Shown: positions 22,224 through 46,528 of the stretch, in pieces
How the letters are laid out: every line of letters begins with the position of its first letter
Position numbering within the stretch: the stretch's first letter is position 1
From: Sideroxydans sp.
Lineage (GTDB): Bacteria; Pseudomonadota; Gammaproteobacteria; Burkholderiales; Gallionellaceae
Direction of reading: 5' to 3'
Assembly (NCBI GenBank): GCA_027310665.1
Contig: DAIDAJ010000104.1
Span: 1-50,003 of the forward strand
Length of the DNA: 50,003 nucleotides
Made by a program: the position numbers and the translations under genes
The notes under the pieces: model-generated
Told to the model about the DNA's origin: nothing
Databases searched by the model: none
The model's input: only the letters and a program-made list of their open reading frames with translations

Positions 22224-22269
22224 GGATTATGATGCGCGACATCCAGAGCTGAGTAAGGAGGAAAGAAGA

Positions 22270-23175
22270 ATGGAACTCGTTCAGAATCACCGCGATTTGC
22301 TGAAGGCAGTATATTCTCAACTCCGCATTCGGTTCGATGCAGATCATGGCGTGCTTTGGACTCAGGTCTGCCAGGACGCCGTTCCGTGCGTGACGCCGGA
22401 ACTCCTGAAAGATCTCGGCGATCACCATAGGGCTATTGAAAATGCCCAAGGTAAGTTGCTGGTCGGGGATGAGCTGCATGAAATCCGCTATTCGGTATTG
22501 TCTTCCATCACGCCTGGAGTCTTTAACCTGGGCGGTCAGCTTGCACTTTTCAGACAACTGATCAGAAATCAGGATCGCGAATCGTTGCTGAGTTATGCGA
22601 TCGCGTGTATCGATGTCATCTTCCCCAGGATGCGCCATTTTGACCTGCCATTGGCGACAATAACCTTGTTGCAGGGTGATGCGCTGGGTGGTGGCCTGGA
22701 GGCCGCACTGGCCAGCGATGTTGTCATTGCCGAACGCAATTGCCAGTTGGGCTTTCCGGAAATATTGTTCAACTTGTTCCCCGGAATGGGGGCCTATAGT
22801 CTGATTGCCAGAAAAGTCAGCCCGAAATTCGCCGAAAAAATGATCCTGGGCGGAAAGATTTACAGTGCAGAAGAACTGCATGAAATTGGGCTGATCGACA
22901 TCCTCGCTGAGGACGGCAAGGGAGTCGAGACAGTTAACGACTACATCAAAAAGCAGGAACGGCGCTCCAACGGTTTTCTGGCTGTCCAGAAAGCACGTCA
23001 CAGATTCAATCCGCTAACCTATCAGGAACTGATCGATATCACGACTGTTTGGGTTGACGCAGCACTCAAGCTTAATGAAAAGGACTTGAAGGTGATGGAT
23101 CGCTTTGTTCGTTCCCAGGAGAAGCTCTTTCTGCAGCCTCAAGCCGTGCCGGCGCAGCTTCCCAGCGCGGCCTGA
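22270..23175 (+). CDS. rpfF: RpfF-like DSF (cis-2-unsaturated fatty acid signal) synthase
   Basis: A crotonase-fold protein of 301 residues. RpfF enzymes act on acyl-ACP as both dehydratase and thioesterase to release cis-2-enoic acids. Two catalytic glutamates are recognisable, E144 in GGGLEAALASD and E164 in GFPEILF; their 20-residue spacing equals E141/E161 of the Xanthomonas enzyme. An ordinary enoyl-CoA hydratase would not be expected in this context. The region PGVFNLGGQLALF matches RpfF except that the usual NLGGD reads NLGGQ. A strong AAGGAGG (22255-22261) precedes ATG 22270. The gene converges with rpfC, 3 bases apart at the stops, as in Xanthomonas. No rpfB is in the window. Which fatty acid it makes is unknown. 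Confidence 0.87.
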   Translation: MELVQNHRDLLKAVYSQLRIRFDADHGVLWTQVCQDAVPCVTPELLKDLGDHHRAIENAQGKLLVGDELHEIRYSVLSSITPGVFNLGGQLALFRQLIRNQDRESLLSYAIACIDVIFPRMRHFDLPLATITLLQGDALGGGLEAALASDVVIAERNCQLGFPEILFNLFPGMGAYSLIARKVSPKFAEKMILGGKIYSAEELHEIGLIDILAEDGKGVETVNDYIKKQERRSNGFLAVQKARHRFNPLTYQELIDITTVWVDAALKLNEKDLKVMDRFVRSQEKLFLQPQAVPAQLPSAA

Positions 23176-23178
23176 CGT

Positions 23179-25698
23179 TTACAGGATAGCCTGATTGGCG
23201 CCGTTCAGGTAATGCAGTAGCGAAGCGCGAGTGGCAGGGTGGCTATCCAGTGCTTCAAGCAGCAAATCTTTGGCTGAACCTTCTAGTTCCGTGTCACTGA
23301 GCACCAGTATTTTGCAGCAGACCTTGAACAATACTTCGGCTCCGACGTTACCGGAGCTTCCCTTTAATATGTGTGCAAGCTCCTTGAACGTGGCGTATTC
23401 CTGTTTCGATAGTGCGATGCGCATGGCTTCAAGCAACTTTTCGGTTTCGGAGAGAAATCCGTAGATCACTGTCCGCAAAAAATCATCCTGTTCGCCACCC
23501 AGTAGCGTCAAGTGATGCAGCGTATCTTCATTGATAAACCCGTTCGCAATTTGTTCGGCATGATGAGCCAGTTCCGGGGCATCGGAACTGGATGGGGTCA
23601 GCGTCAAACGAGCGACGGTATCAAGCAAAGTTAACGCATCGACCGGTTTGGTCAGGTAGGCATCGATGTGAGCGCGTTCGCATTCCAGTTTTGCCTCAAG
23701 TGTGGCATTGGCAGTGAGGATGATCACTGGAGTATCCGTAGGCTGTCTGGACAGGGCACGATAAACCTTGACCACATCCAGTCCGCCCATCTGCGGCATG
23801 TTCATGTCCAGTATCAACAGGTCGTAATTGTTTTCTTCCAGCTTGTCCAGCGCCTGTTCGCCGTTCTCAACCAGGTCAACCTGGTGATTGCCGTGCATGA
23901 GTATCTTCTTGATAATTTGCTGGCCTGTACCATTGTCCTCCGCAACAAGGATCCGAACCCCGCGCTTGCCGGCCGTGCTGCGTTCGTAGTGCTCCTTGAA
24001 CGAGATTACGCCTTCCGAAGGGCGCGGCGCCATGATTCCGTGCAACGCGTTGAATAACAGAGTTTTGTCGAGCGGCATCCGCAACAGGCATGAATATCCG
24101 GCATTGAGATATTCCTCTTCGCGATGGTTATGAAGGTCGGGATTGAGGAGGATGGAAGATAGCCTCTGCGGTCCGCGCAGTTCCCGGAGGTTGGCCGCGA
24201 AATCCTTAGCGCTCATGCCGATGTTTTGCGGCAGGCACAGGATCGCGAGATTGTCCGGACGGGAGGCATTTTTGTCCATTAAATATGTGAAGAAATGCGT
24301 CAGCGAGACAGCGTGTTCGCATCGCAACCCCCAGCTTCTTGTGAAATTGGTTACGGCGAGTTGGTCGCTTTGTGGCAAGCCCACGGTTAGCACGTACAGT
24401 TGTTGCAGCGTCGGTTTGGCCTCGCTGAGAATTGCCGCCGGTTGCTTGGAGAAGGGGGCTTCGAACCAGAAAATGCTGCCGATGCCCGGTTCGCTCTGTA
24501 CACCCATGCTTCCGCCCATCAATTCCACCAGTTGCTTGGATATTGTTGTGCCCAGTCCGGTGCCGCCGTAGATCCGGGTGATGTTGTGATCGGCCTGGGT
24601 AAAACTTTCGAATATCCTCGATTGTGCCTGCGGAGGGATACCGATGCCTGTGTCGATCACTTCGAACCGAAGCCGGGTTTTGCAGTCGTCCTGAAGCACT
24701 GTCGCGATCCTGAGTTCGACACTTCCCTTGTTGGTGAACTTGATCGCATTGCCGATCAGGTTGATCAGGATTTGCTGCAGATGCAAGGGATCGCCTTGCA
24801 GCATGAAGCAAGTCTCCGGCGTAAACCGAACCGACAGGCTCAGTTGCTTTTTTTCCACCTGGGGCAGGAACATCTCAAGCGTGCTGTTGACCAGTTTGTG
24901 CAGATCGAAATCGGTTATTTCGGAGACCAGCTTTCCGCTTTCGATTTTGGAGAGGTCGAGAATATTGTCGATGAGCTTGAGCAGGAGCTGAGCCGATTTC
25001 TTCAAGGTCGAGACCAGATCCTTCTGCTCTTCATCCAGACGCGTGCTGATCAACAGGTCACTGGCGCCGATCACCCCGTTGAGCGGGGTGCGCATTTCGT
25101 GGCTCATGTTGGAGAGGAAGTCGCTTTTTGCCTTGCTGGCCGCCTGAGCTTTTTCCAGGGCATCATTCAATTGTCCGCGCAGCTTCAGGATATATAGCGG
25201 AACGCAAAGCAGAGTGAGCCATAGTCCTACTGCAATGCGCAGGTGATCATGCCAATAGTCGTTCAGGTAGAGAACTGCGGAGAAGCCGACAAGGCTGGTC
25301 ACATAGGAGCTGACAAGAGATTCCTTGCCGTAACGAATACCATTTCCGGTGATGACCCACAGATAGATGCCGTAAAACAACACTCCGGCTTCCTGCGTCA
25401 TCACCATGCCGACACTCACCGCGACGATATCGGCAAACATCGCCACCCATTGCCGCCTTCTGGAAGTGTTGCGCCGATACAGGACGTAGAGGGCCAACAG
25501 GACAGAGCAGAAGAACCAGACGGCAGAAAAGACGAAAACTGGAACGCCGACTGAAGTTGGGCTCACGAAATAGAATTCGACAAACAGGTAAATAAATATC
25601 GGCAAGGCGAAAAAAACCCTCAACAGGGTTTGTTCATGCTCGCCTTCACGCTGTCGAACCTGCTGGACGAAATAGGCTAGCCTTTCGTTCATTGCCAT
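23179..25698 (-). CDS. rpfC: RpfC-like hybrid sensor histidine kinase (DSF receptor candidate)
   Basis: An 839-residue hybrid kinase. A short N-terminal segment precedes five or six transmembrane helices (about 26-172). Next come HisKA with H200 in FLSNMSHEMRTPLNG (RpfC of Xanthomonas uses H198), and HATPase with NLIGNAIKFTNKG, DTGIGIPPQAQ and GGTGLGTTISKQLVELMGG. A region of about 430-555 folds like a receiver but lacks the acidic pocket. A true receiver has D631 in LLILDMNMPQMGG, and a C-terminal Hpt domain has H776 in LAHILKGSSGNVGA. The expected relay is H200-D631-H776 to the RpfG receiver. It overlaps rpfG by 10 bases and is transcribed after it; the promoter should be upstream of rpfG. 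Confidence 0.88.
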   Translation of the reverse strand: MAMNERLAYFVQQVRQREGEHEQTLLRVFFALPIFIYLFVEFYFVSPTSVGVPVFVFSAVWFFCSVLLALYVLYRRNTSRRRQWVAMFADIVAVSVGMVMTQEAGVLFYGIYLWVITGNGIRYGKESLVSSYVTSLVGFSAVLYLNDYWHDHLRIAVGLWLTLLCVPLYILKLRGQLNDALEKAQAASKAKSDFLSNMSHEMRTPLNGVIGASDLLISTRLDEEQKDLVSTLKKSAQLLLKLIDNILDLSKIESGKLVSEITDFDLHKLVNSTLEMFLPQVEKKQLSLSVRFTPETCFMLQGDPLHLQQILINLIGNAIKFTNKGSVELRIATVLQDDCKTRLRFEVIDTGIGIPPQAQSRIFESFTQADHNITRIYGGTGLGTTISKQLVELMGGSMGVQSEPGIGSIFWFEAPFSKQPAAILSEAKPTLQQLYVLTVGLPQSDQLAVTNFTRSWGLRCEHAVSLTHFFTYLMDKNASRPDNLAILCLPQNIGMSAKDFAANLRELRGPQRLSSILLNPDLHNHREEEYLNAGYSCLLRMPLDKTLLFNALHGIMAPRPSEGVISFKEHYERSTAGKRGVRILVAEDNGTGQQIIKKILMHGNHQVDLVENGEQALDKLEENNYDLLILDMNMPQMGGLDVVKVYRALSRQPTDTPVIILTANATLEAKLECERAHIDAYLTKPVDALTLLDTVARLTLTPSSSDAPELAHHAEQIANGFINEDTLHHLTLLGGEQDDFLRTVIYGFLSETEKLLEAMRIALSKQEYATFKELAHILKGSSGNVGAEVLFKVCCKILVLSDTELEGSAKDLLLEALDSHPATRASLLHYLNGANQAIL

Positions 25699-26801
25699 AC
25701 CTGCACTTTCTGTGTGGGCGAAGCATCCTGCAGCTGTTGCTGGATGATGCTGATCTTGCTGAATTGCAGCATGAATGCTTCCACGCAGCCCGGGTCAAAA
25801 TGCGTGCCTTTGTTGGCATCCAGGTATGCCAGCGCATCCTGGTTTGACCAGGCCTTCTTGTAAGGACGTTCGGAAGTAAGGGCGTCATAGACGTCGGCTA
25901 CCGCGACAATGCGCGCGTCGAGCGGGATGGACTTTGCCTTCAGGCCATTCGGGTAGCCGCTGCCGTCGTATTTCTCATGGTGCGAAAGCGCGATCTCGGC
26001 GCCAAGGCTGATGTACTTGGAGTTGCTGTTCTGGAGTATCTGGTAGCCGATGGAACAATGCGTCTTCATAGTCGCAAATTCCTCATGATTCAGCTTTCCC
26101 GGCTTGAGCAGGATATGGTCCGGAATGCCGATCTTGCCGATGTCGTGCATGGGGGCGGCCATCTCGATCAGGCTGCAACGGTTTGCGTCCAATCCCATCC
26201 CTTCGGCGATCAGGCGCGAAAACTTTGCCATGCGCAAGACGTGGTTGCCGGTATCCGAATCCCGGTATTCACCTGCCTTCGCCAAACGGATGAGCGTCTC
26301 CTGTTCGCGTTCCCGTATTCGCCGCGTCGCTTCGGCAACGGCTTCTTCCAGTTTTTCGGAACGGAGCAATACCTCCTTATGGTGTCGGTGCAGGGCGAGC
26401 AGATTGCGGCAGCGGATCTGGCATTCGTAGTGGTTGAAGGGCTTGGAGAGAAATTCTGCGACACCCAGGTCCAACGCCCTGTGACGTATTTCATTGTCGT
26501 TCGACACGGTGATCATGATGATGGGGACGTGTTCAAGGTGTGGAATGTGCCGTATCGTTTTGACAACCTCCAGTCCGGACATCTCATCCATCAGATAATC
26601 GACCAGGATCAGGTCGGGCTGGTTCAGCCTTAGCCAATCGATCGCCCCCAGGGGGGAGGCGAATGCCTGAACGAAAATATCCTTCTGCAGACTGCGCACG
26701 ATCTTGTCGAGGATGATGCGGCTGGTGAACTCATCGTCGATGATCGCGATCGTGGGATGAGACAGGTTCTTGTCGTTCTGGCTGATGATTTCGAATGGCA
26801 T
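25689..26801 (-). CDS. rpfG: RpfG-like response regulator, cyclic-di-GMP phosphodiesterase (REC-HD-GYP)
   Basis: Hydrolyses cyclic-di-GMP when activated by the RpfC relay. The receiver domain (about 15-135) has the acidic pair IIDDE (21-23), phospho-acceptor D68 in LILVDYLMDEMSG and lysine in FLSKPF. A coiled linker (about 145-170) leads to the HD-GYP domain with MHDIGKIGIPDHILLK (HD at 219-220) and HHEKYDGSGYP (274-284), all metal and GYP residues intact. AAGGA stands upstream of the ATG on the minus strand. It is the first gene of the rpfG-rpfC operon and divergent from zipA. RpfH, the small protein between the two in Xanthomonas, is missing. Confidence 0.9.
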   Translation of the reverse strand: MPFEIISQNDKNLSHPTIAIIDDEFTSRIILDKIVRSLQKDIFVQAFASPLGAIDWLRLNQPDLILVDYLMDEMSGLEVVKTIRHIPHLEHVPIIMITVSNDNEIRHRALDLGVAEFLSKPFNHYECQIRCRNLLALHRHHKEVLLRSEKLEEAVAEATRRIREREQETLIRLAKAGEYRDSDTGNHVLRMAKFSRLIAEGMGLDANRCSLIEMAAPMHDIGKIGIPDHILLKPGKLNHEEFATMKTHCSIGYQILQNSNSKYISLGAEIALSHHEKYDGSGYPNGLKAKSIPLDARIVAVADVYDALTSERPYKKAWSNQDALAYLDANKGTHFDPGCVEAFMLQFSKISIIQQQLQDASPTQKVQVWQ

Positions 26802-26840
26802 GATGGTCGTTCCTTTGTAAACGCATCGTGAGATACTCTG

Positions 26841-26859
26841 CCCCGTCTTCGGTGCGGGG
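26841..26859 (-). repeat. Hairpin in the rpfG-rpfC leader
   Basis: CCCCG and CGGGG form a 5-bp stem around a 9-base loop, 40 bases upstream of the rpfG start. The 277-base divergent region (26802-27078) should hold both rpfG and zipA promoters. I found no convincing -35/-10 pair and no recognisable riboswitch in it. Confidence 0.25.
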
Positions 26860-27078
26860 TTATGGATGGAGTGAGGTTGGTCCCAATGCCGGTTCTTCGG
26901 GACACGCCGGCGTAAGTAGAACCTTCGCGGCCGCCATCGTCAACTGTCCGAATGACGGCATGGCCGATCTTACGGTTAGCGACAAGTGGCCGCAATACTT
27001 TAAGACCTGCCATTCTAAGCAAGGATTTGAGATAATTCATGGGTATTTCCCACTTGGTGTGCTCCCCGGTATTCGAAC

Positions 27079-33885: not shown

Positions 33886-34020
33886 GCCGATACGCGGTTC
33901 ATGCAGGATTGCTCAACAGCCGATGCGTCGCAACGATTCATGGCCCAATGAGTCATCCCGGTGCCAGTCAATGGATGACGTGATAAAGTGTGGCATCTCA
34001 ATGCAACATTGGGGGATGCG

Positions 34021-35826
34021 GTGGATCGTACTTTATTGCTGGTCGACGATGAGGAAGATGTCATTGCCGCTCTGGAACGCCTGCTCAGATATGACGGTTA
34101 CCGGATCCTGCGCGCGAACAGCGGGCGGCAGGGCCTGGAAATGCTGGCCAGGCACGAGGTCGGTGTAGTCATTTCGGACCAGCGTATGCCGGAAATGTCC
34201 GGGGTCGAGTTCCTGTCCCAAGTCAAAGAGTTGTATCCTGAAACGATACGCATCGTATTGAGCGGTACCGCCGATTTCGATTCGGTGAAAGAGGCCATTA
34301 ATCAGGGTGCGATTTACAAGTTTTTTTCCAAACCCTGGGACAACGAAGTCTTGCGCGTGGACGTCATGGAAGCGTTCTGGCGCCGGGATCTGGCGTGTGA
34401 AAAGGAACACCTGCTGCGGGACATTCAGTCCGCAAACGATCAACTGGCGCAGGTCAATCTGGAACTTGCGGCCGCCATGGAGAGCAAGGACATCCAGATC
34501 GAACGCTTCGCGCATTACGATGCACTCACCGGTCTGCCTAACCGCACCTTGTTTCTCGACCGGCTAGAGCAGGAACTGGCCCGCGCCCATCGCGATAACC
34601 ACATGGTAGCGGTCCTGTCGCTCGATCTTGACCGGTTCAAGCAGATCAACGATTCTTACGGCCACCCTGTCGGTGACCAGCTGCTGCAGGCCGTGGCGGG
34701 GAGGCTGTCCAGCCATGTTCGCGCCTGCGACACGGTTGCCCGGACAGCCGGCGACGAATTCGGACTTGTGCTGACGGACTTGAAGGCAGCCCACGATGCT
34801 GCCGAGGTGGCGCAGAAGCTGCTTGATTCGTTCGCGCACAATCCCATATCGACAGGAGACAGCGAAATCTTCGTCACGTTAAGCATAGGGATCAGTATCT
34901 ATCCGCTCGACGGTTTGAACACGGCAACGATGCTAAAGAATGCTGATGCTGCGCAACACCAGGCGAAGGATGAAGGCCGCAATAATTTCCAGTTTTACGC
35001 GGGACACATGAATGCTACCGCATGGCAGCGCCTGAATCTGGAAACCGAATTGCGCCGCGCCATTGAGCGGGAGGAATTCACGCTCTATTACCAGCCGAAG
35101 GTCGATATGGACAGCGCAAAGATCGTGGGAATGGAAGCCCTGTTGCGTTGGCAAAGCCCGGATCGCGGACTGGTGATGCCGGGCGGGTTCATTCCGCTGC
35201 TGGAAGAAACAGGCCTTATCCTGCCGGTCGGGGAATGGGTCTTGCGGGCAGCGTGCAAGCAGGCGCGCGCATGGAAAGCAGTCGGTTTGTCAAATATCCA
35301 TATTGCGGTCAACCTGTCCACGCTGCAATTCAGACAACCGGATTTTGCCGGCCTGGTACTGGGCATCCTGAACGAAAATGGTCTTGACCCGGCTTTGGGG
35401 GAAATCGAACTGGAACTGACAGAAAGCCTGTTGATGAGCAACGCAGAAGGGGCGATCGATACGCTGAACAAGTTGCACGAATCGGGCATCCGGTTCTCCA
35501 TAGACGATTTCGGCACCGGCTATTCGAGCCTGAGCTATCTGAAGCGCTTTCCGATTAGCAGCCTCAAGATCGACCAGTCCTTCGTGCATGACCTTTCCAG
35601 CGATCGCGACGATGAAGCGATCGTTGCAGCGATCATCGCGCTGGGCCATAGCCTCGGATTAAGCATCATCGCGGAGGGCGTGGAAACGAAGAGTCAGCTG
35701 GCGCAGCTGCGCAAGATGGGTTGCAATGAAATGCAGGGATACTTGTTCAGCCGTCCTGTGCCTGCCGCTGAAATGACGTATTTGCTGCAAAAGGGCGAAA
35801 CCCTGAATTGTGCTCTGGGGGGATGA
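34021..35826 (+). CDS. Response regulator with GGDEF and EAL domains (cyclic-di-GMP turnover)
   Basis: A 601-residue cytoplasmic protein. The receiver domain (about 3-120) has D53 in VVISDQRMPEMSG and lysine in FFSKPW. After a short helical linker, GGDEF spans about 165-330 with the signature AGDEF at 243-247, an I-site RACD five residues before it, and substrate residues DLDRFKQIND. EAL follows with MEALLRW (371-377), NLSTLQFRQ, ELTES and DDFGTGYSSLSYLKRF. Both catalytic halves look competent, so phosphorylation may decide the direction of turnover. GTG 34021 with GGGGGA upstream gives an N-terminus parallel to the next gene (MDRTLLLVDD versus MERTLLLVDD); GTG 33988 is an alternative. It begins the seven-gene sensory cluster. 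The 135 bases upstream may hold its promoter. Confidence 0.9.
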   Translation: MDRTLLLVDDEEDVIAALERLLRYDGYRILRANSGRQGLEMLARHEVGVVISDQRMPEMSGVEFLSQVKELYPETIRIVLSGTADFDSVKEAINQGAIYKFFSKPWDNEVLRVDVMEAFWRRDLACEKEHLLRDIQSANDQLAQVNLELAAAMESKDIQIERFAHYDALTGLPNRTLFLDRLEQELARAHRDNHMVAVLSLDLDRFKQINDSYGHPVGDQLLQAVAGRLSSHVRACDTVARTAGDEFGLVLTDLKAAHDAAEVAQKLLDSFAHNPISTGDSEIFVTLSIGISIYPLDGLNTATMLKNADAAQHQAKDEGRNNFQFYAGHMNATAWQRLNLETELRRAIEREEFTLYYQPKVDMDSAKIVGMEALLRWQSPDRGLVMPGGFIPLLEETGLILPVGEWVLRAACKQARAWKAVGLSNIHIAVNLSTLQFRQPDFAGLVLGILNENGLDPALGEIELELTESLLMSNAEGAIDTLNKLHESGIRFSIDDFGTGYSSLSYLKRFPISSLKIDQSFVHDLSSDRDDEAIVAAIIALGHSLGLSIIAEGVETKSQLAQLRKMGCNEMQGYLFSRPVPAAEMTYLLQKGETLNCALGG

Positions 35827-36647
35827 TGGAACGTACGCTGTTGCTGGTCGACGACGAGGAGAATATCACTTCCGCGCTGGTGCGCTTGCTGCGCCGGGAC
35901 GGCTACCGCATTCTGCGTGCCAACAGCGGCGAAGCCGGGCTGGAGTTGCTGGCGCAAAATGAGGTTGGCGTGATCATTTCGGACCAGCGTATGCCCGGAA
36001 TGACGGGCGTTGAATTTTTGGGGAAGGTGCGGGAACTTTATCCCGATACTGTGCGTGTCGTACTGAGCGGTTATACCGAACTCAATACGGTGACCGATGC
36101 CATCAACCGCGGCGCGGTCTATAAATTCCTTACCAAGCCTTGGGAAGACGAGCTGCTTCGAGCCAACGTGGAAGAGGCATTCCAGCGTTATGAAATGAAG
36201 ATCGAAAATGTTCGATTGGCACGCGAGCTGGAGGATGCGAACGAGGAATTGATGCGCATCAACCATGAGCTTGAATTGCGCGTGGAAGAGAAGACCCGGG
36301 AAGTGATGCGCAACCTTGAGATTCTGCAGGTGTCGCAGGAAGTACTGGAACGCCTGCCGGTGGCGGTAATCGGTATCGGAAATGACGGGGTGATCGCCAT
36401 CGCCAACCAGAACGCGCATGGCCTGTTTTCAGAAAATGGCATGCGGCCATTGCTTGGCGAGGTGGCCGACAGTGTGATCCCGCCGGAATTGCTGAGCTAT
36501 ATCCATGACGAGGATAGCCGCAAGTTTAAAAGGAAAGTTTTCTACCGGCTGGCGGATGGCCGTGAGTCCCAGTGCTGGTGCAGCCCAATGGGGGAGATTT
36601 CATCGTCGCAGGGAGTGGTACTCGTCGTTGTCGCCGATCAGGAGTGA
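35826..36647 (+). CDS. Response regulator with C-terminal PAS-like domain
   Basis: A 273-residue protein. Its receiver (1-120; D53 in VIISDQRMPGMTG, lysine in FLTKPW) is a close relative of the preceding receiver, clearly by duplication. A coiled coil (about 125-165, IENVRLARELEDANEELMR) links to a PAS-like fold (about 170-273, RLPVAVIGIGNDGVIAIANQNAHG). There is no enzymatic or DNA-binding output, so it may be an adaptor or phosphate sink, or act by protein contact. ATG 35823 overlapping the previous stop is an alternative start. Confidence 0.8.
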   Translation: MERTLLLVDDEENITSALVRLLRRDGYRILRANSGEAGLELLAQNEVGVIISDQRMPGMTGVEFLGKVRELYPDTVRVVLSGYTELNTVTDAINRGAVYKFLTKPWEDELLRANVEEAFQRYEMKIENVRLARELEDANEELMRINHELELRVEEKTREVMRNLEILQVSQEVLERLPVAVIGIGNDGVIAIANQNAHGLFSENGMRPLLGEVADSVIPPELLSYIHDEDSRKFKRKVFYRLADGRESQCWCSPMGEISSSQGVVLVVVADQE

Positions 36648-36655
36648 AAGAGAAT

Positions 36656-37489
36656 ATGCCCGCCGTGACAGACAAAGAAGCGATCCTGGACAAGCTGCAC
36701 CAGCTGCCCGCCATGCCGTTGGTGGTCAGGGAGGTGATGTCCAGTTTCAGGGACGCCAATGTGGGCAGTGCCATCATGGCGCGCAAGATCGAGCTCGACC
36801 AGGGATTGAGCGCCAGGGTATTGCGCGTGGCGAATTCCTCGTTTTACGGTTTGTCGCGCGAGGTGGGTTCGATACAGGATGCGGTCACTGTGCTTGGATT
36901 CGACACTGTCCGCTCGCTGGTGGTATCGGCGGGATTCACCCGCGCCTTCCCGGCGGGTGCCGATGGCCTGTTTGACCGCCATGCCTACTGGATGCGCAGT
37001 TTCAAGGTGGCTTCCTACACCGAGGCGCTGGCGCAGCGCCTCGGTGGAGTCCGGCAACTGTCGTTCACATCCGGCTTGTTCCATGATGTCGGACAACTGG
37101 TGTTGAGTATCTGCATCCCGGAAAAGTTTGCGGACATACTGGCGCAGCAAAAGACCACAGGATTGAACCTGATCGAGGTCGAGCAGGCCGTGCTCGGCTT
37201 CGACCACTCCGAAATCGGAGCGGAAATGGCCAAACGTTGGAACTTTCCGCCGGAAATCGAGCACGCCATCAATTTCTGGCGCGTGCCGGATCATGAGCCG
37301 TTCGAGCCGATCAGCGGCATGGTGTACGTTGCGGCATCGCTTGAAAGCGGGCTGAAGGGTGACGCCTTGATCGAAAGCCTGCCTGAAGTGTTGCGGAATC
37401 GTTTGCAGATAAGCTGGGAACGCATTGAACCCGGCATGCCGCAGCCGGACCAGTTGAATGCCGTGGCAAATCTTATGCTGGAAGCGTGA
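36656..37489 (+). CDS. HDOD domain signalling protein
   Basis: A stand-alone HDOD domain, 277 residues. The start LDKLHQLPAMPLVVREVM and the core SARVLRVANSSFYGLSREVGSIQDAVTVLG (split) are diagnostic, and FTSGLFHDVGQLVLS keeps an HD-like pair. HDOD proteins usually lack phosphodiesterase activity and serve as scaffolds near two-component and cyclic-di-GMP genes. It lies 8 bases after the receiver-PAS gene in the same transcript. ATG 36656 is used because upstream codons lie in the previous gene. Confidence 0.88.
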   Translation: MPAVTDKEAILDKLHQLPAMPLVVREVMSSFRDANVGSAIMARKIELDQGLSARVLRVANSSFYGLSREVGSIQDAVTVLGFDTVRSLVVSAGFTRAFPAGADGLFDRHAYWMRSFKVASYTEALAQRLGGVRQLSFTSGLFHDVGQLVLSICIPEKFADILAQQKTTGLNLIEVEQAVLGFDHSEIGAEMAKRWNFPPEIEHAINFWRVPDHEPFEPISGMVYVAASLESGLKGDALIESLPEVLRNRLQISWERIEPGMPQPDQLNAVANLMLEA

Positions 37490-37528
37490 GTCCCGTATCA
37501 ACCCGGCAGTCCGAGGGGAGCTTTGACG

Positions 37529-38866
37529 ATGGAAATACAAATGAGTGAAAAGCCCGGAATCCCGGCATCCCAGAACGGAACGGAGGGAAATTCGACCCTG
37601 CTGTTCGTGGATGACGAGGGGAACATCCTGTCTTCGCTGAAGCGCCTGTTCCGCCCCTGCGGTTACCGCATATTCACGGCTGAGAGCGGCGCGCAAGGAT
37701 TGGAGATCATGCAGCGCGAAGCGGTCGACCTGGTGGTTTCCGATATGCGCATGCCGGAAATGAGCGGGGCGCAATTCCTGGAGCAGGTGAACGCCAGATG
37801 GCCGGACACGATACGCATTCTGCTGACCGGGCATGCCGAGATCGGAGCGACCATCGATGCCATCAACAAGGGGCATATATACCGCTACATATCCAAGCCT
37901 TGGGAAGATAACGACATCGTCCTGGCCATCAGGCAGGCTTTGCACCAGAAAGCGCTCGAGTCTGCAAACCGGAGCTTGGAAGAACTGACGCGCAAGCAAA
38001 ACGAGGAGTTGAAGGACCTGAATGCAAATCTTGAACAGAAGGTCAAGGTGCGCACGGAGGAAGTACGCCAGACGATGGGATTTCTGGAAATCGCGCACGA
38101 CAAGCTCAAACGGGATTTCATTACGTCGATCCGGGTTTTCTCCAACCTGATCGAGATGCGCGAAGGTGCCATGGCCGGACACTCGCGCCGGGTCGCCGAG
38201 CTGTCCCGAGCCATTGCCCAGAAGATGAAGGTGAATGACGCGGATGCGCAGGATATATTCCTTGCCGCGCTGCTGCACGATGTCGGGAAGATCGGATTCC
38301 CGGATTACCTGCTGGAAAAGTCATTCGCAAACCTGACCAGCGAAGAGCGACTCGATGTGATCAAACATCCTGTCAAAGGACAGACGGCGTTAATGGCGCT
38401 GGAACCGCTTAATGGTGCGGCAAAACTGATACGCAGCCACCATGAACGTTTTGACGGGCTGGGCTTCCCGGACAAGCTGCAGGGGCTGGCAATTCCCTTG
38501 GGGGCGCGGATCATTGCGCTGGCGAACGAGTATGACGCGGTCCAGATCGGCATGCTGTTGAGCAAGCGCCTGAAGCAGGCCGACGCGGTGCTGTTCATTC
38601 AGGAAGGGAGCGGCAAGCGTTATGACCCGGCGGTAGTGGGTGCATTCATGTCCGTCATGGAGTCGGCCGCTCATGTCGTTCAAGAACAGGCGCTGCGTCC
38701 GGAGCAACTCAGGCCCGGCATGGTGCTGTCACGTGACTTGCTGAGCGGTCAGGGCGACCTGTTGCTGTCGAAAGAACACCTGCTGGACGCTTCATTGATC
38801 GATCAGATAAGGGGCTTCAAACAACTCGGTGACGAGCTGGTCATTTATGTGCTTGATAAAAAATGA
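37529..38866 (+). CDS. Response regulator with HD-GYP-type domain
   Basis: A 445-residue protein. The receiver (about 22-140) has D72 in LVVSDMRMPEMSG and lysine in YISKPW. A long coiled coil (about 140-195) leads to an HD-GYP domain with LLHDVGKIGFPDYLL (HD at 250-251) and HHERFDGLGFP (304-314). The GYP motif is altered to GFP but all metal-binding residues appear present, so it may still cut cyclic-di-GMP or may act by binding. A C-terminal region (about 385-445, LRPGMVLSRDLLSGQGDLLLSK) is common in HD-GYP regulators of this type. ATG 37529 follows GAGGGGAG by 8 bases. Confidence 0.88.
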   Translation: MEIQMSEKPGIPASQNGTEGNSTLLFVDDEGNILSSLKRLFRPCGYRIFTAESGAQGLEIMQREAVDLVVSDMRMPEMSGAQFLEQVNARWPDTIRILLTGHAEIGATIDAINKGHIYRYISKPWEDNDIVLAIRQALHQKALESANRSLEELTRKQNEELKDLNANLEQKVKVRTEEVRQTMGFLEIAHDKLKRDFITSIRVFSNLIEMREGAMAGHSRRVAELSRAIAQKMKVNDADAQDIFLAALLHDVGKIGFPDYLLEKSFANLTSEERLDVIKHPVKGQTALMALEPLNGAAKLIRSHHERFDGLGFPDKLQGLAIPLGARIIALANEYDAVQIGMLLSKRLKQADAVLFIQEGSGKRYDPAVVGAFMSVMESAAHVVQEQALRPEQLRPGMVLSRDLLSGQGDLLLSKEHLLDASLIDQIRGFKQLGDELVIYVLDKK

Positions 38867-38934
38867 TGCATGGCCCGGAGTTTTTCGCGTAGCGGGTCGG
38901 CAGGCTGACTTCCAACTAATCGGGACAATCCATC

Positions 38935-40071
38935 GTGAAGATAGAACAGCAATACTGGACCGTCGGCGAAGGCTGGAAAATCGAATCGGCGGCGCAGCTC
39001 GACGGCAACGCTTCTCTGGTGCTGGCTTTCGGTGCCGGGCATATTTTGGACGATACCATTGTGATGGATGACGTTCGTGCACGCTATCCGGGTGCGCCCT
39101 TGGTCGGGTGTTCAACATCCGGTGAAATCTGCGGAACCCGAGTGCGCGACGATACACTTGTCGTCACTGCACTGCGTTTCGAGCATACCGCGTTCAAGCT
39201 GGTGCATGAGGTCATCGCGGAGGGAGGAGACAGCCTTGCCGCGGGTGAGCGCCTGGCTAAAGCGCTTCCGACGCAGGAGTTGGTGCATGTGTTGGTACTC
39301 TCCGACGGTCTGAAGGTCAACGGCAGCGAACTGGCACGTGGCCTGCGCGAGAACTTGCCGGCCGATGTGGCCGTCACCGGCGGACTCGCAGGAGATGGTA
39401 CGGCTTTCCGGCAGACCCTGGTTTTTGCGGATCGCGTACCCAGCCAGGGTGTGATCACTGCGCTGGGCTTTTACGGAAAACGCCTCAGGGTTGGCTACGG
39501 TTCCCTCGGCGGCTGGGACTCCTTTGGTGCGGAGCGCCGGATCACCCGTTCCAAAGGCAATGTGTTGTATGAGCTGGACGGACGTTCTGCACTGGAGCTA
39601 TACAAGAAATATCTGGGCGAACGATACACAGGACCAGCGGATGCGTTGCTGTTCCCCCTGATGCTACGCTACGGCGAGGATGATTTCGGCCTGGTTCGCA
39701 CGGTGCTGGCCGTCAATGAGGAAGAGCAGAGCCTGACCTTCGCGGGGGATATGCCCGAGGGCGGTTATGCACGTTTGATGAAGGCCAATTTCGATCGTCT
39801 TGTCGATGGTGCCGAGGGTGCGGCTCGTGCCAGCTACGAAATGCTGGGCTCGGTCGAGCCGGAACTGGCTTTGCTTGTCAGTTGCGTCGGGCGCAAGCTG
39901 GTGCTGAAGCAGCGCATCGAGGAGGAGGTCGAAAGCGTGCGCGGAGTGTTGGGAAAGAATACGGTGCTCGCCGGATTTTATTCCTACGGCGAAATCTGTC
40001 CGCATGGCGCCATCACGCAGTGCGAGTTGCACAACCAGACGATGACGATCACCACATTTTCGGAGAGATGA
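38935..40071 (+). CDS. FIST domain sensor protein
   Basis: A 378-residue soluble protein made of FIST-N (about 25-225) and FIST-C (about 225-365) domains. Typical motifs are VGCSTSGEICG near the start, VTGGLAGDG in the middle and VLAGFYSYGEICPHG near the end. FIST proteins are thought to bind small ligands such as amino acids and occur next to histidine kinases and GGDEF genes. It has no signal peptide or membrane helix, so it would sense cytoplasmic ligands. GTG 38935 is taken as the start; the next gene begins 3 bases after its stop, which makes that kinase its probable partner. Confidence 0.9.
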   Translation: MKIEQQYWTVGEGWKIESAAQLDGNASLVLAFGAGHILDDTIVMDDVRARYPGAPLVGCSTSGEICGTRVRDDTLVVTALRFEHTAFKLVHEVIAEGGDSLAAGERLAKALPTQELVHVLVLSDGLKVNGSELARGLRENLPADVAVTGGLAGDGTAFRQTLVFADRVPSQGVITALGFYGKRLRVGYGSLGGWDSFGAERRITRSKGNVLYELDGRSALELYKKYLGERYTGPADALLFPLMLRYGEDDFGLVRTVLAVNEEEQSLTFAGDMPEGGYARLMKANFDRLVDGAEGAARASYEMLGSVEPELALLVSCVGRKLVLKQRIEEEVESVRGVLGKNTVLAGFYSYGEICPHGAITQCELHNQTMTITTFSER

Positions 40072-40074
40072 ACT

Positions 40075-41151
40075 GTGCACAGGCTGCTCGAACGCCAGAT
40101 CAAGCGTTACATAGATGAACAGGCGACGCTGCCGCCGGCGTTCGAGAATTTCATTGCGGCGGTGAATGAAGCGTATTTCAGCGCCGACGCCGATCGCCTG
40201 ATGATCGAGCGCTCCCTTGATCTGATGTCGAGGGAGTTGACCGAGGCCAATGCCGATCTGCGCAATGAACTGGCAGAACGCAGGCGTACCGAAGCGGATC
40301 TGAACAAGGAAAAGGAAGAGCAGCGCGTCCTGATCAAGAAGCTGGAAGATGCTTACAGCCTCATGCTGCAATCGGAGAAAATGGCATCGATAGGCCAGCT
40401 TGCGGCAGGCGTGGCGCACGAACTGAACAATCCGATCGGCTTTGTATACTCCAACCTGGGTACGCTGGAAAAATACGTGCAATCCACCTTCCGCATGATC
40501 GAGCTGTATGAAAAGGCTGAAGAGGCGATCCCGGATCAGGACGTGCGGAGATTGCTTCAGACGGCAAAAGAGGAATTGGATATCGCATTCCTGAAAACGG
40601 ACCTGAGCGCATTGATGGATGAATCGAAGGACGGTATCACCCGCGTCAAGGTGATCGTGCAGAACCTGAAGGACTTTTCTCACGTGGGCGCTTCCGATGA
40701 ATGGCATTTCTCGGACCTGCGCAAAGGACTCGACAGCACCCTGAGTATCGTCAACAACGAAATCAAGTACAAGGCCGCCGTGGTCAAGGAATATGGCGAT
40801 ATCCCCGAAGTGGAGTGTCTGGCTTCGCAACTCAATCAGGTATTCATGAACCTGCTGGTGAACGCCGCACACGCTATTGCGGAAAGAGGCACGATCACGA
40901 TCCGCACAGGACAAGAGGCAGATCAAGTATGGGTGGACATTGCTGATACCGGGCACGGTATCGCTCCCGAGCACATGCAGAAGATATTCGATCCTTTTTT
41001 CACCACAAAACCGGTCGGTAAAGGGACTGGGCTGGGATTGTCGCTATCCTACGGAATCGTGCAGAAGCACCACGGGAGAATGGAAGTGCAGAGCGATGTC
41101 GGCAAGGGGACAACATTTCGTGTCTGGCTGCCGGTTAAACAGCCCCAGTGA
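40075..41151 (+). CDS. Soluble histidine kinase, partner of the FIST protein
   Basis: A 358-residue cytoplasmic kinase without transmembrane helices. An N-terminal helical region (1-60) is followed by a coiled coil (60-100), HisKA with H115 in QLAAGVAHELNNPIG, and HATPase with NLLVNAAHAI, DTGHGIAPEHM and GKGTGLGLSLSYGI. With no sensor domain of its own it likely receives input from the FIST protein encoded just before. Its catalytic half is strikingly like that of the next gene. GTG 40075 is the start. The receivers upstream are the obvious phosphate acceptors. Confidence 0.9.
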   Translation: MHRLLERQIKRYIDEQATLPPAFENFIAAVNEAYFSADADRLMIERSLDLMSRELTEANADLRNELAERRRTEADLNKEKEEQRVLIKKLEDAYSLMLQSEKMASIGQLAAGVAHELNNPIGFVYSNLGTLEKYVQSTFRMIELYEKAEEAIPDQDVRRLLQTAKEELDIAFLKTDLSALMDESKDGITRVKVIVQNLKDFSHVGASDEWHFSDLRKGLDSTLSIVNNEIKYKAAVVKEYGDIPEVECLASQLNQVFMNLLVNAAHAIAERGTITIRTGQEADQVWVDIADTGHGIAPEHMQKIFDPFFTTKPVGKGTGLGLSLSYGIVQKHHGRMEVQSDVGKGTTFRVWLPVKQPQ

Positions 41152-41207
41152 CGGGCCTGCGACGGAGGCTGTGGGTTAAGGGATACAGAAGAGGTCGGCA
41201 ATTTTGA

Positions 41208-42755
41208 ATGGGGGCCGGTATGTATACGGAAGCTGATGAGAAATTCATAGCCTTCAACTGGGACAACAAATTCGATACCGGTGTCGATGCGGTGGATGTC
41301 CAACATCAGAAGCTGGTGGACATCATCAACCGCCTGGGTTCCATCAGCGCGAACCAGACCAGTTACGCGGCGCTGGACGCTATCCTGAACGAGTTGGCGA
41401 ATTACACGGTGTATCATTTCGAAGCCGAAGAAAAGCTGATGAAGCACTATGCGATAGACGAGGCTCACCAGGCTGTCCATATCAAGGCGCATCAGCATTT
41501 CACCAGCCAGGTGACACAGGCGGCGAAGATTCTCCGGAGCAGTCCCGACATTTCCCGGCAACTTCTCACGCCGTTGCTGAAATACCTCACCAACTGGCTG
41601 GTACAGCATATCCTTGGTCTGGATAAACGCATGACCCAGGAAGTACTGGCCTTGCAGGCCGGAGACAGTCACTATGAGGCTACCCGCAAGGCGACCGCCT
41701 TCATGACCCAGGCAGCAAACGTGCTGATGGAAGCGCTGAACGAGATGTATGGAAAGCTCGGGGACAAGACACTGGAGGTGATGAAGAAGAACCAGGAACT
41801 GGAAGCGGAACAGGAAGCGCTGCGCGCACTGAATGAACAATTGGAGCAGCGCGTGCAACAGCGAACCGCCGCGGTGGAACAAGCCAATCGCCAGTTGCAG
41901 TCCAATAATGCCGAACTCAAACAGCTCAACGAACGGCTGGAATCCGCTCAGACCCAGTTACTGCAGGCAGAGAAGATGGCGTCCATCGGCCAGCTGGCGG
42001 CCGGCGTGGCGCACGAGATCAACAATCCCGTCGGATTCGTCAATTCCAATCTGGGCACGCTGGGCAAATATATCGGCAGCATGTTCAAGGTTATCGACGC
42101 TTATGCAGCGGAAGCCGGCAACGAGGCCGGTGTATTTCCCGAGGTGGCACGGGTCAAGAAAGCCGTGGATTTCCCCTACCTGGTCGAAGACATCCCCAAT
42201 CTCTTGAAGGAGTCTCAGGATGGGCTGGCGCGAGTCAAGCGCATCGTCCAGGACCTCAAGGATTTTTCTCACGTCGACGAAAGTACGTGGCAGCACGCCA
42301 ACCTCGAGAACGGGATGGATAGCACGCTGAATGTCGTCGCGAACGAGATCAAATACAAGGCGGAAGTGATCAGGGAGTATGCGGGGCTGCCGGAGGTGGA
42401 ATGCATGCCGTCGCAGATCAACCAGGTGTTCCTGAACCTGCTGATGAACGCCGCACAGGCGATCGACAGGAATGGTGTCATCACGGTTCGTACCGGAAGC
42501 AGCGAACAAGAGGTGTGGGTGGAGGTGGAAGATACGGGCCAGGGTATCGCTCCTGAACATATCAACCGCATCTTTGATCCCTTTTTCACCACGAAACCGG
42601 TAGGTAAAGGTACCGGTCTTGGCTTGTCGCTGTCATACGGCATCGTGCAGAAACACCATGGGCGTATCGAAGTGAACAGTGAAATGGGTAAAGGCACCCG
42701 GTTCAGGGTATGTTTGCCCGTGCGGCAGGCGCCCATAAGCGGACCTTGGCATTGA
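41208..42755 (+). CDS. Bacteriohemerythrin-histidine kinase fusion (oxygen or redox sensor kinase)
   Basis: A 515-residue cytoplasmic kinase. The N-terminal hemerythrin domain (about 15-145) carries all seven expected diiron ligands: H33, H70, E74, H91, H95, H134 and D139 (patterns HxxxE, HxxxH, HxxxxD). A long coiled coil (about 185-255) leads to HisKA with H269 in QLAAGVAHEINNPVG and HATPase with DTGQGIAPEHI and GKGTGLGLSLSYGI. Hemerythrin domains bind O2 (and in some proteins NO), so this should report oxygen to the nearby receivers. ATG 41208 or ATG 41220 could be the start; the latter has a G-rich stretch 5 bases upstream. Confidence 0.9.
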   Translation: MGAGMYTEADEKFIAFNWDNKFDTGVDAVDVQHQKLVDIINRLGSISANQTSYAALDAILNELANYTVYHFEAEEKLMKHYAIDEAHQAVHIKAHQHFTSQVTQAAKILRSSPDISRQLLTPLLKYLTNWLVQHILGLDKRMTQEVLALQAGDSHYEATRKATAFMTQAANVLMEALNEMYGKLGDKTLEVMKKNQELEAEQEALRALNEQLEQRVQQRTAAVEQANRQLQSNNAELKQLNERLESAQTQLLQAEKMASIGQLAAGVAHEINNPVGFVNSNLGTLGKYIGSMFKVIDAYAAEAGNEAGVFPEVARVKKAVDFPYLVEDIPNLLKESQDGLARVKRIVQDLKDFSHVDESTWQHANLENGMDSTLNVVANEIKYKAEVIREYAGLPEVECMPSQINQVFLNLLMNAAQAIDRNGVITVRTGSSEQEVWVEVEDTGQGIAPEHINRIFDPFFTTKPVGKGTGLGLSLSYGIVQKHHGRIEVNSEMGKGTRFRVCLPVRQAPISGPWH

Positions 42756-45284: not shown

Positions 45285-46292
45285 TCACGAAACCCCCTTG
45301 TTCCTCAGTTGCGAGGCAAGCTGGGTATCGTGTTCTCTGATATGTTCCCATAACCACTCATTGGCGCTGTGAATTACCCTTGCCAGTTCTTCTTCATTGA
45401 AATTCAGGTTTCCGAAGATCGACCTCAGTTGTCTCAACCTCACCTGGTGTTCGGTACGATGTGCATCAGAACCATCGAGGTCATGGAGTTGCATCAGGTC
45501 TTCCTCTGTCTTGAAATGTATCCGGCAAAGTTCGACCAGGAGATCAACTCTCTTCAGCAGTTTTGTTGAATGATCGCCATTCTTGAGTGATTCAATGATC
45601 CCTTGGATGAAATTGGCCATGGCTTTATGCTGCTCATCCAGGATGGAAATTCCCAGATTCATATTGGTTGGCGGCGCTCCTGGTGAGGGCTGGCCCACTT
45701 TTCTGGAGGCCATCTGCAAGTTCCTGCTGAAGCCTATCAGCCCCCTGCCATTGTTCCTGGCAACATTCATCGCCTGATTTGCGCACAGCATCAATTGCTC
45801 GGCCAGATAACCATCCTGCGGACTCAGGACGATACCCGCACTGGCCCCGACACTGATCTGCGTACCATTGCCCAACTTGATAGGGCCGGACATGGCTCTC
45901 ATGATTTTCAGGGCAACGATCTCTGCTTCCTTTTTGTTCATTACTCCGTCCAGCAGGATAGCGAACTCATCACAGCCCGTTCGGGCGACAGTATCAACAT
46001 CACGAATTGCGGATGCCAGGTGATTGGCCACATCGCATAACACTTGATCGCCGGCATCGTGACCATTGGCGTCATTTACGGCCTCGAACTCATCCAGATC
46101 AAGCATGATCAATGCAAAGCCGCTCTCGTAACGGCGCACACGCGCCAGTTCGCGATTCATCCGTTCAACAAACAAATCGCGATTGGGCAGTCCCGTTAAC
46201 GGGTCATGAAATGCACGATGCCCAACCTGATTGTGCAAGTGTGAGTCTCCTTTATTTACTGAAACAGTGTGTGCGACTTCTTTTTCTGCCAT
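45285..46292 (-). CDS. Degenerate GGDEF protein with C-terminal hemerythrin domain
   Basis: A 335-residue cytoplasmic protein. The GGDEF domain (about 28-190) has PLTGLPNRDLF and metal residues in MLDLDEFEAVND, but the signature reads GCDEF (106-110) instead of GGDEF. The RDVD I-site stands five residues before it. The C-terminal hemerythrin domain (about 212-330) keeps all ligands: H222, H259 with E263, H278, H282, H317 and D322. It could be a cyclic-di-GMP-binding oxygen sensor with weak or no cyclase activity. ATG 46290-46292 follows GGGGA on the minus strand; ATG 46304 and a longer frame from 46427 are alternatives. No gene is seen in the 236 bases upstream. Confidence 0.87.
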   Translation of the reverse strand: MAEKEVAHTVSVNKGDSHLHNQVGHRAFHDPLTGLPNRDLFVERMNRELARVRRYESGFALIMLDLDEFEAVNDANGHDAGDQVLCDVANHLASAIRDVDTVARTGCDEFAILLDGVMNKKEAEIVALKIMRAMSGPIKLGNGTQISVGASAGIVLSPQDGYLAEQLMLCANQAMNVARNNGRGLIGFSRNLQMASRKVGQPSPGAPPTNMNLGISILDEQHKAMANFIQGIIESLKNGDHSTKLLKRVDLLVELCRIHFKTEEDLMQLHDLDGSDAHRTEHQVRLRQLRSIFGNLNFNEEELARVIHSANEWLWEHIREHDTQLASQLRNKGVS

Positions 46293-46528
46293 GGCTGTCC
46301 CCATGTATTGCAGCTGGCGTGTTCTCGCTTTGCGGGTGAACTTCATTTCTGGAAAATATAGACAAACCGGGCAAATCTCAATCACCCGACTGCCATTAAT
46401 CAGGGCAGCGTTTGTCCAGACTCGCAAGTAACCTTACATCAATTAGACGGATTTACCTATAAGTCCGAATACGCCCGCATAAACCATATCAAACACAGGA
46501 TAGATTGAATGCTCGTACGGCATCGCGG

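Follow-up and report, generated by a model that had tools for sequence, protein, structure and literature searches.

The DNA analysed here, 50,003 nucleotides from Sideroxydans sp. (contig DAIDAJ010000104.1; referred to below as the window), carries a compact set of three genes that would make up a diffusible signal factor (DSF) system. On the plus strand lies rpfF (22270..23175), which is preceded by an AGGAGG ribosome-binding site recognised by inspection (22256..22261, plus strand) and codes for a DSF-synthase-type crotonase of 301 aa with E144 and E164, assigned by its PRK08788 score, its PDB matches and a tree; on the minus strand, open reading frame (ORF) and Pfam analysis placed rpfC (23179..25698), for a hybrid sensor kinase of 839 aa, and rpfG (25689..26801), for a REC-HD-GYP response regulator of 370 aa with intact D68, HD and GYP motifs. 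The genes rpfF and rpfC are arranged tail to tail, with stop codons 3 bp apart, and there is a 10-bp overlap between rpfC and rpfG. Pfam recognised ECH_1 in RpfF, HisKA, HATPase_c, Response_reg and Hpt in RpfC, and Response_reg and HD_5 in RpfG. The coordinates and named residues given in a first-pass annotation all agreed with our ORF and residue check, and the convergence of rpfF on rpfG-rpfC, also described there, was confirmed at the locus and is kept across the bacterial family. Judging from sequence comparison, we consider it probable that the locus is a DSF-family RpfF-RpfC-RpfG cell-cell signalling module in Gallionellaceae (Sideroxydans/Sideroxyarcus group).

Family placement and linkage of RpfF

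RpfF scored 367 bits against the NCBI model PRK08788, above the cut-off of 177, and the best ordinary hydratase model reached only 67 bits. When searched by sequence against PDB, its four best matches (two named RpfF, two named crotonase or putative enoyl-coenzyme A (CoA) hydratase) had E ≤2e-49, and the next crotonase followed at 2e-14; at this level the similarity is well above chance. A tree was built with a quick IQ-TREE run, with the SH-like approximate likelihood ratio test (SH-aLRT) as the only support measure and no bootstrap, from 128 RpfF-like sequences and five crotonases. The crotonase outgroup separated at SH-aLRT 99, the 19 sequences of the window's family formed a single clade (SH-aLRT 99), which joined RpfC-linked sequences of the same order (SH-aLRT 93), and the sequences linked to GGDEF/EAL genes fell in clades apart from that of the window. 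Thus, the phylogeny that had been suggested as a check grouped RpfF with DSF synthases and not with catabolic hydratases, in line with the scores. The structure that AlphaFold predicted for RpfF from 10 sequences was of low quality (predicted local distance difference test, pLDDT, 49.4) and was discarded.

The catalytic residues were less informative than the first-pass annotation had assumed in taking the 20-residue spacing of E144 and E164 as specific to RpfF. E144 is present in 126 and E164 in all of the 128 RpfF-like sequences; however, the same alignment columns hold Glu in four of the five ordinary crotonases (PaaF, CaiD and two FadB-like domains from the same genome as the window) and the pair is therefore not diagnostic. 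W261 occurs in 128/128 RpfF-like sequences and in 0/5 of the outgroup, two members of which are gapped at that place. In two of the 128 sequences (L182 of G161 and L183 of G399) the first catalytic Glu is replaced by Gln. The ECH_1 domain and this ordinary Glu pair are what could be expected if the crotonase were a catabolic enoyl-CoA hydratase adjoining a two-component system by chance, but the family scores, the tree, the PDB ranking and the linkage to RpfC and RpfG make this highly improbable, and we rejected it. Beta-oxidation could be served by two FadB-like ORFs found elsewhere in the genome, whose identity as FadB is our own reading. By these comparisons RpfF is of the DSF-synthase type, placed in the broad PRK08788 family and outside the narrow NCBI RpfF equivalog NF053515; it is 38% identical to the protein of genome G373.

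The linkage of rpfF was examined at 128 loci, the window included, counting convergent kinases within 2 kb. A convergent RpfC-like kinase was found at 82 of them, with rpfG also in reach at 53 of those 82; a GGDEF/EAL-type ORF was found at 29 and neither partner at 17. Two of the 29 (L132/L133, in G254 and G365) have, on the same strand, rpfF, then an ORF of 780 aa showing HD-GYP-like and GGDEF/EAL features, then a long RpfC of the form described below; the other 27 we take, from motif patterns, as putatively RpfR-like. In the window's family the picture is uniform: the survey of rpfF neighbours in Gallionellaceae, likewise suggested earlier, gave a convergent RpfC-like kinase at 19/19 loci and rpfG at 18/19, the exception being G026, on a contig of 4,860 bp. 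Moreover, the distances among RpfF proteins correlated with those among their RpfCs (r 0.85, 79 pairs; 0/500 permutations as high), also when the window's family was left out (r 0.71, 61 pairs); shared species history contributes to this correlation. Two genomes carry two rpfF genes each: in G489 (L192, L223) one is linked to RpfC/RpfG and the other to GGDEF/EAL, and in G600 (L211, L214) both are accompanied by a separate RpfC-like kinase, a distant one of about 26% identity.

Domain architecture of RpfC and RpfG

All RpfC domains are encoded on the minus strand. Pfam and the residue check placed HisKA with H200 (24934..25131) and Hpt with H776 (23308..23457), Pfam placed HATPase_c (24451..24795), and Pfam with a PDB match placed the receiver with D631 (23614..23952). 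The best of 237 PDB matches of this receiver was 3m6m_D, an RpfC receiver from an entry that also contains RpfF. A simple hydropathy scan of residues 28-173 (25180..25617) gave five hydrophobic segments at a lenient cut and three at a strict one. Thus, the domain set and phosphorelay residues that had been annotated are present, and the five-segment membrane bundle is seen at the lenient cut only. In RpfG, D68 lies in the receiver, HDIGK at 219 is followed by HHE..DGSGYP, and the best PDB match is 4mcw, a metal dependent phosphohydrolase corresponding to the HD-GYP protein PmGH, with HD, HH and GYP motifs aligned; Pfam, this alignment and the residue check all support a REC-HD-GYP regulator with intact motifs, as first annotated. 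The genome contains 14 HD_5 matches, therefore RpfG is one among many.

An extra domain (about residues 430-560), absent from the earlier description, lies between HATPase_c and the receiver; with its linker it spans residues 420-582 (23953..24441). These roughly 160 residues gave no Pfam match at E 10. With hhalign, a profile of 73 such stretches matched true receivers at 98.3% (E 1e-14); a HATPase control gave 0.16%. A structure predicted from 10 sequences (pLDDT 77.2, low in the tail) retrieved PDB receiver domains with Foldseek, the best being PA1611 (E 1e-4), with 17 matches at E ≤0.001. A sequence profile of 10 of these domains, run against PDB sequences, found no receiver (the best match, at E 0.067, was a transporter), therefore the link to receivers comes from hhalign and the fold comparison. 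The place of the phospho-acceptor Asp is occupied by Leu489 and that of the usual receiver Lys by Met541, and for this reason we read the domain as a pseudo-receiver, that is, a predicted receiver fold lacking the phospho-acceptor; among the long RpfCs, Asp is found at this place in 28/73 and Glu in 12/73. The comparison comprised 83 aligned RpfC-like kinases, one per stretch and chosen as the highest-scoring match above 200 bits: 74 have the domain and nine are short, without it, and the 73 "long" RpfCs are these 74 minus that of G448, which has no Hpt and whose kinase gene lies upstream of rpfF. A short RpfC occurs in G373, whose RpfF passes the NCBI cut-off, and in its family mate G111. The predominance of the long form in our sample suggests that the Xanthomonas model protein is not typical of RpfC.

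Pseudo-receivers in such a position have been reported for GacS/BarA, RcsC and ShkA (PMC7010744). In RpfC, where it separates the kinase core from the true receiver, the domain would most likely act as a gate on the kinase. It might also bind cyclic di-GMP (c-di-GMP), in which case the level set by RpfG would feed back on the DSF sensor, as in Caulobacter ShkA. In fact, the second-best PDB match of RpfC (residues 194-699) was the hybrid kinase 6qrj, which has kinase core, pseudo-receiver and receiver in the same order and which corresponds to ShkA, an identification that fits our count of the DDR and Tyr338 places; the first receiver (Rec1) of ShkA with c-di-GMP was at rank 13 in the fold search. 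However, ShkA Tyr338, implicated in c-di-GMP binding (PMC7010744), aligns with Leu538, and this place is Val, Leu or Ile in 56 of the 73 long RpfCs. Since, in addition, the linker HDDR aligns with HYER, c-di-GMP binding in the manner of ShkA is weakened and we regard it as improbable. ShkA differs from RpfC also in that the membrane bundle and Hpt of the latter lie outside the matched stretch.

The second departure from Xanthomonas concerns the sensor. In Xanthomonas RpfC, detection of DSF requires Arg15, Asp17, Ser18, Glu19 and Gln22, and all replacements of Ser18 except Thr lowered the response (PMC5391125). By alignment, the counterpart in the window is residues 17-23 (REGEHEQ; 25630..25650, minus strand), in which the Glu and Gln are kept, Asp17 is changed to Glu, Ser18 to Gly (Gly19), and the Arg is one residue closer to the conserved Glu, so that the full set of Xanthomonas-type sensor residues is not present. 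The Ser18 place is Gly in 15/18 RpfCs of the family, the window included, and Ser in 3/18; it is Ser or Thr in 34/50 other long RpfCs and Ser in 5/9 short ones. From the change of Ser18 to Gly, a different ligand or a weaker response is predicted. By its sensor changes and its pseudo-receiver, as read from the alignments, the window RpfC is a variant of the Xanthomonas-type protein.

These features also bear on whether the three genes work as one circuit. RpfF could make a DSF-family acid, or act as a thioesterase on acyl-acyl carrier protein (acyl-ACP), and RpfC/RpfG, with a diverged sensor, answer another ligand, the linkage being kept for the RpfF-RpfC contact or for fatty-acid homeostasis rather than for classical quorum sensing. 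The Gly at the Ser18 place in most of the family, the shifted Arg and the presence of a pseudo-receiver, a domain that in ShkA binds a small molecule (PMC7010744), are in favour of such an arrangement; on the other hand, the sensor Glu and Gln are kept in 18/18 family RpfCs, the exchange of Asp17 for Glu is conservative, and Ser/Thr is also missing at the Ser18 place in 16/50 of the other long RpfCs. We consider this arrangement unlikely. A related and speculative proposal, to which we give a somewhat better though still low chance, is that the usual RpfC outside the Xanthomonads is a two-input kinase, with a membrane site for a fatty acid and the pseudo-receiver as the site for another small molecule, and that the Gallionellaceae pair, with its shifted sensor, responds to some other fatty acid or chiefly to the small molecule. 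If so, signal synthesis would be tied to the internal state of the cell.

Distribution and insertion site

Among 100 relatives, rpfF was found in 28: 14/34 genomes of the genus (our own included), 5/26 of other genera of the family and 9/40 of the rest of the order. In larger sets it was present in 54/300 genomes of the order and in 67/369 of the class (RpfF model, E 1e-30). A fifteenth carrier in the genus, G018, lacks a match to rpfF and is recognised by the initial 94 codons of rpfG, which stand at a contig end beside zipA. Close relatives of RpfF were found at nine named loci, led by a Sideroxydans metagenome-assembled genome (MAG) at 95% identity, a Sideroxyarcus MAG at 89% and a Gallionellaceae MAG at 76%; others came under the names Nitrosomonadales, Gammaproteobacteria, Proteobacteria and Ferrovaceae (63%).

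In the window, the rpf block is preceded by a gene with a Glyco_hydro_3 domain, which we take to be nagZ, and followed by zipA (ZipA_C), beyond which lies an ORF that we read as ligA. The nagZ locus could be read in 30 genomes of the genus: nagZ is followed by rpfF in 11 and joined directly to zipA in 19, including G012 and G026, where the rpf genes lie elsewhere. The block occupies the nagZ-zipA site in 13/15 carriers of the genus, counting G011, whose nagZ is in two pieces, and G018, seen from the zipA side only; G008 and G010 have no readable nagZ locus. A NagZ tree, unresolved there, is compatible with a single gain at this site. The G+C content is 0.53 in the rpf block and 0.56 in the window, a difference too small to decide about horizontal gain from composition. 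The two nagZ pieces of G011 (L052) and the rpfG split in two frames in G022 (L056) reflect either assembly error or decay.

The spacer between rpfG and zipA contains a near-invariant element of 33 bp (27007..27039, no strand assigned), identified by comparison within the genus, with a mean identity of 99.5% over 12 genomes, while the remaining spacer reaches 65%. It occurs as a single copy in 13/34 genus genomes, exact in 12 of the 13 and always beside rpfG, and is absent from all 19 directly joined nagZ-zipA loci. It overlaps a promoter-like site directed into zipA; our guess is a regulator site common to the divergent genes. An ORF at 26630-27040, in the rpfG leader, was considered as an extra gene and discarded, as an early stop interrupts its frame in at least G011 and G030. 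At the DNA level the beginning of the ORF hardly varies, with one base differing in G005 in the first codons, and its start is ATG in the window and GTG in other genomes; since the frame stops early despite nearly unchanged DNA, we read the block as constrained at the DNA level. No riboswitch was found in the window, the sole Rfam match being the small signal recognition particle RNA (1857-1955).

Comparison with known systems, proposed mechanism and host

The closest comparison is rpfF/rpfGHC of Xanthomonas, which shares the RpfF crotonase, an RpfC with membrane bundle, HisKA, HATPase, receiver and Hpt, the HD-GYP protein RpfG, and the convergence of rpfF on the operon holding rpfG and rpfC (PMC4504480). 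The window locus differs in the absence of rpfH and in its flanks, nagZ and zipA; rpfH is narrowly conserved even among xanthomonads (PMC4504480), therefore its absence carries little information. The description of the locus as a strictly Xanthomonas-type set did not hold, in view of the RpfC pseudo-receiver (lacking in G373, the one genome that served as Xanthomonad-type yardstick), the lost Ser18 and the NF053515 score. The system of Burkholderia shares the synthase family, but its receptor RpfR is a PAS-GGDEF-EAL protein (PMC4504480); no GGDEF/EAL ORF adjoins rpfF in the window, and a receptor of this type was discarded.

Several observations weigh against the locus being a DSF module of the known kind. 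NF053515, the second-best model of RpfF, gave 228.9 bits, below the 550-bit cut-off, which only 1/369 class genomes passes. A GGDEF/EAL-type neighbour takes the place of RpfC in 27/128 RpfF loci, and at 15/128 no partner was recognised within the stretch read, in part owing to contig ends; together with the nine short kinases among 83, this indicates that RpfF occurs with other partners. Furthermore, rpfF is patchy even in the genus (14/34), the sensor Ser is replaced by Gly, and the sequence profile of the pseudo-receiver retrieved no receiver.

Nor were DSF systems limited to Xanthomonas, Xylella and Burkholderia, as had been thought in the first annotation. Both Thiobacillus and Methylobacillus are betaproteobacteria. 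For these two, here likened by description only, and for Methylophaga and Leptospirillum, a review lists an rpfF-rpfG-rpfC cluster (PMC4504480). Leptospirillum, an iron-oxidising chemolithotroph, has RpfF, RpfC and RpfG, and DSF-family compounds were detected in its cultures (PMC8357829, PMC9592645). Its rpf genes are co-directional, whereas those of the window are convergent; the likeness is taken from published descriptions and, for the window, from its genes. A DSF system in a chemolithotroph is thus not a first. Our literature searches found no connection of RpfF with Sideroxydans; the co-mentions examined of diffusible signal factor and Gallionella do not connect the two, the one of quorum sensing and Gallionellaceae names quorum sensing only in a reference, as far as these sources were accessible, and RpfC, RpfF and pseudo-receiver, in this wording, were not apparent together among the best-matching papers listed from 2005 on. 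Since this kind of system is already in print, what is new, as far as the searches go, is Gallionellaceae as host family and the long form of RpfC.

The analysis itself shows which genes are present and in what order, their conserved residues, their family placement and a predicted domain fold; for the enzyme product, the ligand, the phosphorelay, the RpfF-RpfC contact, the gating and the output, we propose the following scheme. By analogy with known synthases, RpfF would dehydrate 3-hydroxyacyl-ACP from fatty-acid synthesis to a cis-2-enoyl thioester and then free the cis-2-unsaturated fatty acid. This signal would be received by RpfC at its N-terminal stretch and membrane bundle; RpfC would then autophosphorylate at H200 and, with the pseudo-receiver probably gating the kinase, pass the phosphate to D631, H776 and finally D68 of RpfG. 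Phosphorylated RpfG, its HD-GYP domain active, would degrade c-di-GMP and thereby shift cells from biofilm towards motility or dispersal. When little signal is present, RpfF may be held by the RpfC receiver, limiting synthesis.

Further genes of c-di-GMP and two-component signalling are grouped at 33988-42755 of the window: a REC-GGDEF-EAL protein, a lone receiver, an HDOD protein, a REC-HD-GYP protein of the NosR family (570 bits, cut-off 400), a FIST protein that matches NosP weakly (61 bits, cut-off 450), and two kinases, a histidine kinase and a haemerythrin-kinase. A single ORF at 45285-46427 has a GGDEF domain and, after it, a haemerythrin domain. Gallionella capsiferriformans, of the same family, has been singled out for a density of c-di-GMP turnover proteins that ranks among the highest (PMC10333796).

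As regards the host, its genome codes for an MtrA/MtoA-like decahaem protein (283 bits, cut-off 192), adjoining an MtrB/PioB-like protein (460 bits, cut-off 240), and has two matches to the RuBisCO large subunit. An autotroph of the iron-oxidiser type is a fair description from gene content, which bears out the chemolithotroph-like host supposed at first. For the iron-oxidiser-type Gallionellaceae, a DSF-type module of this kind would represent a testable cell-cell signal.

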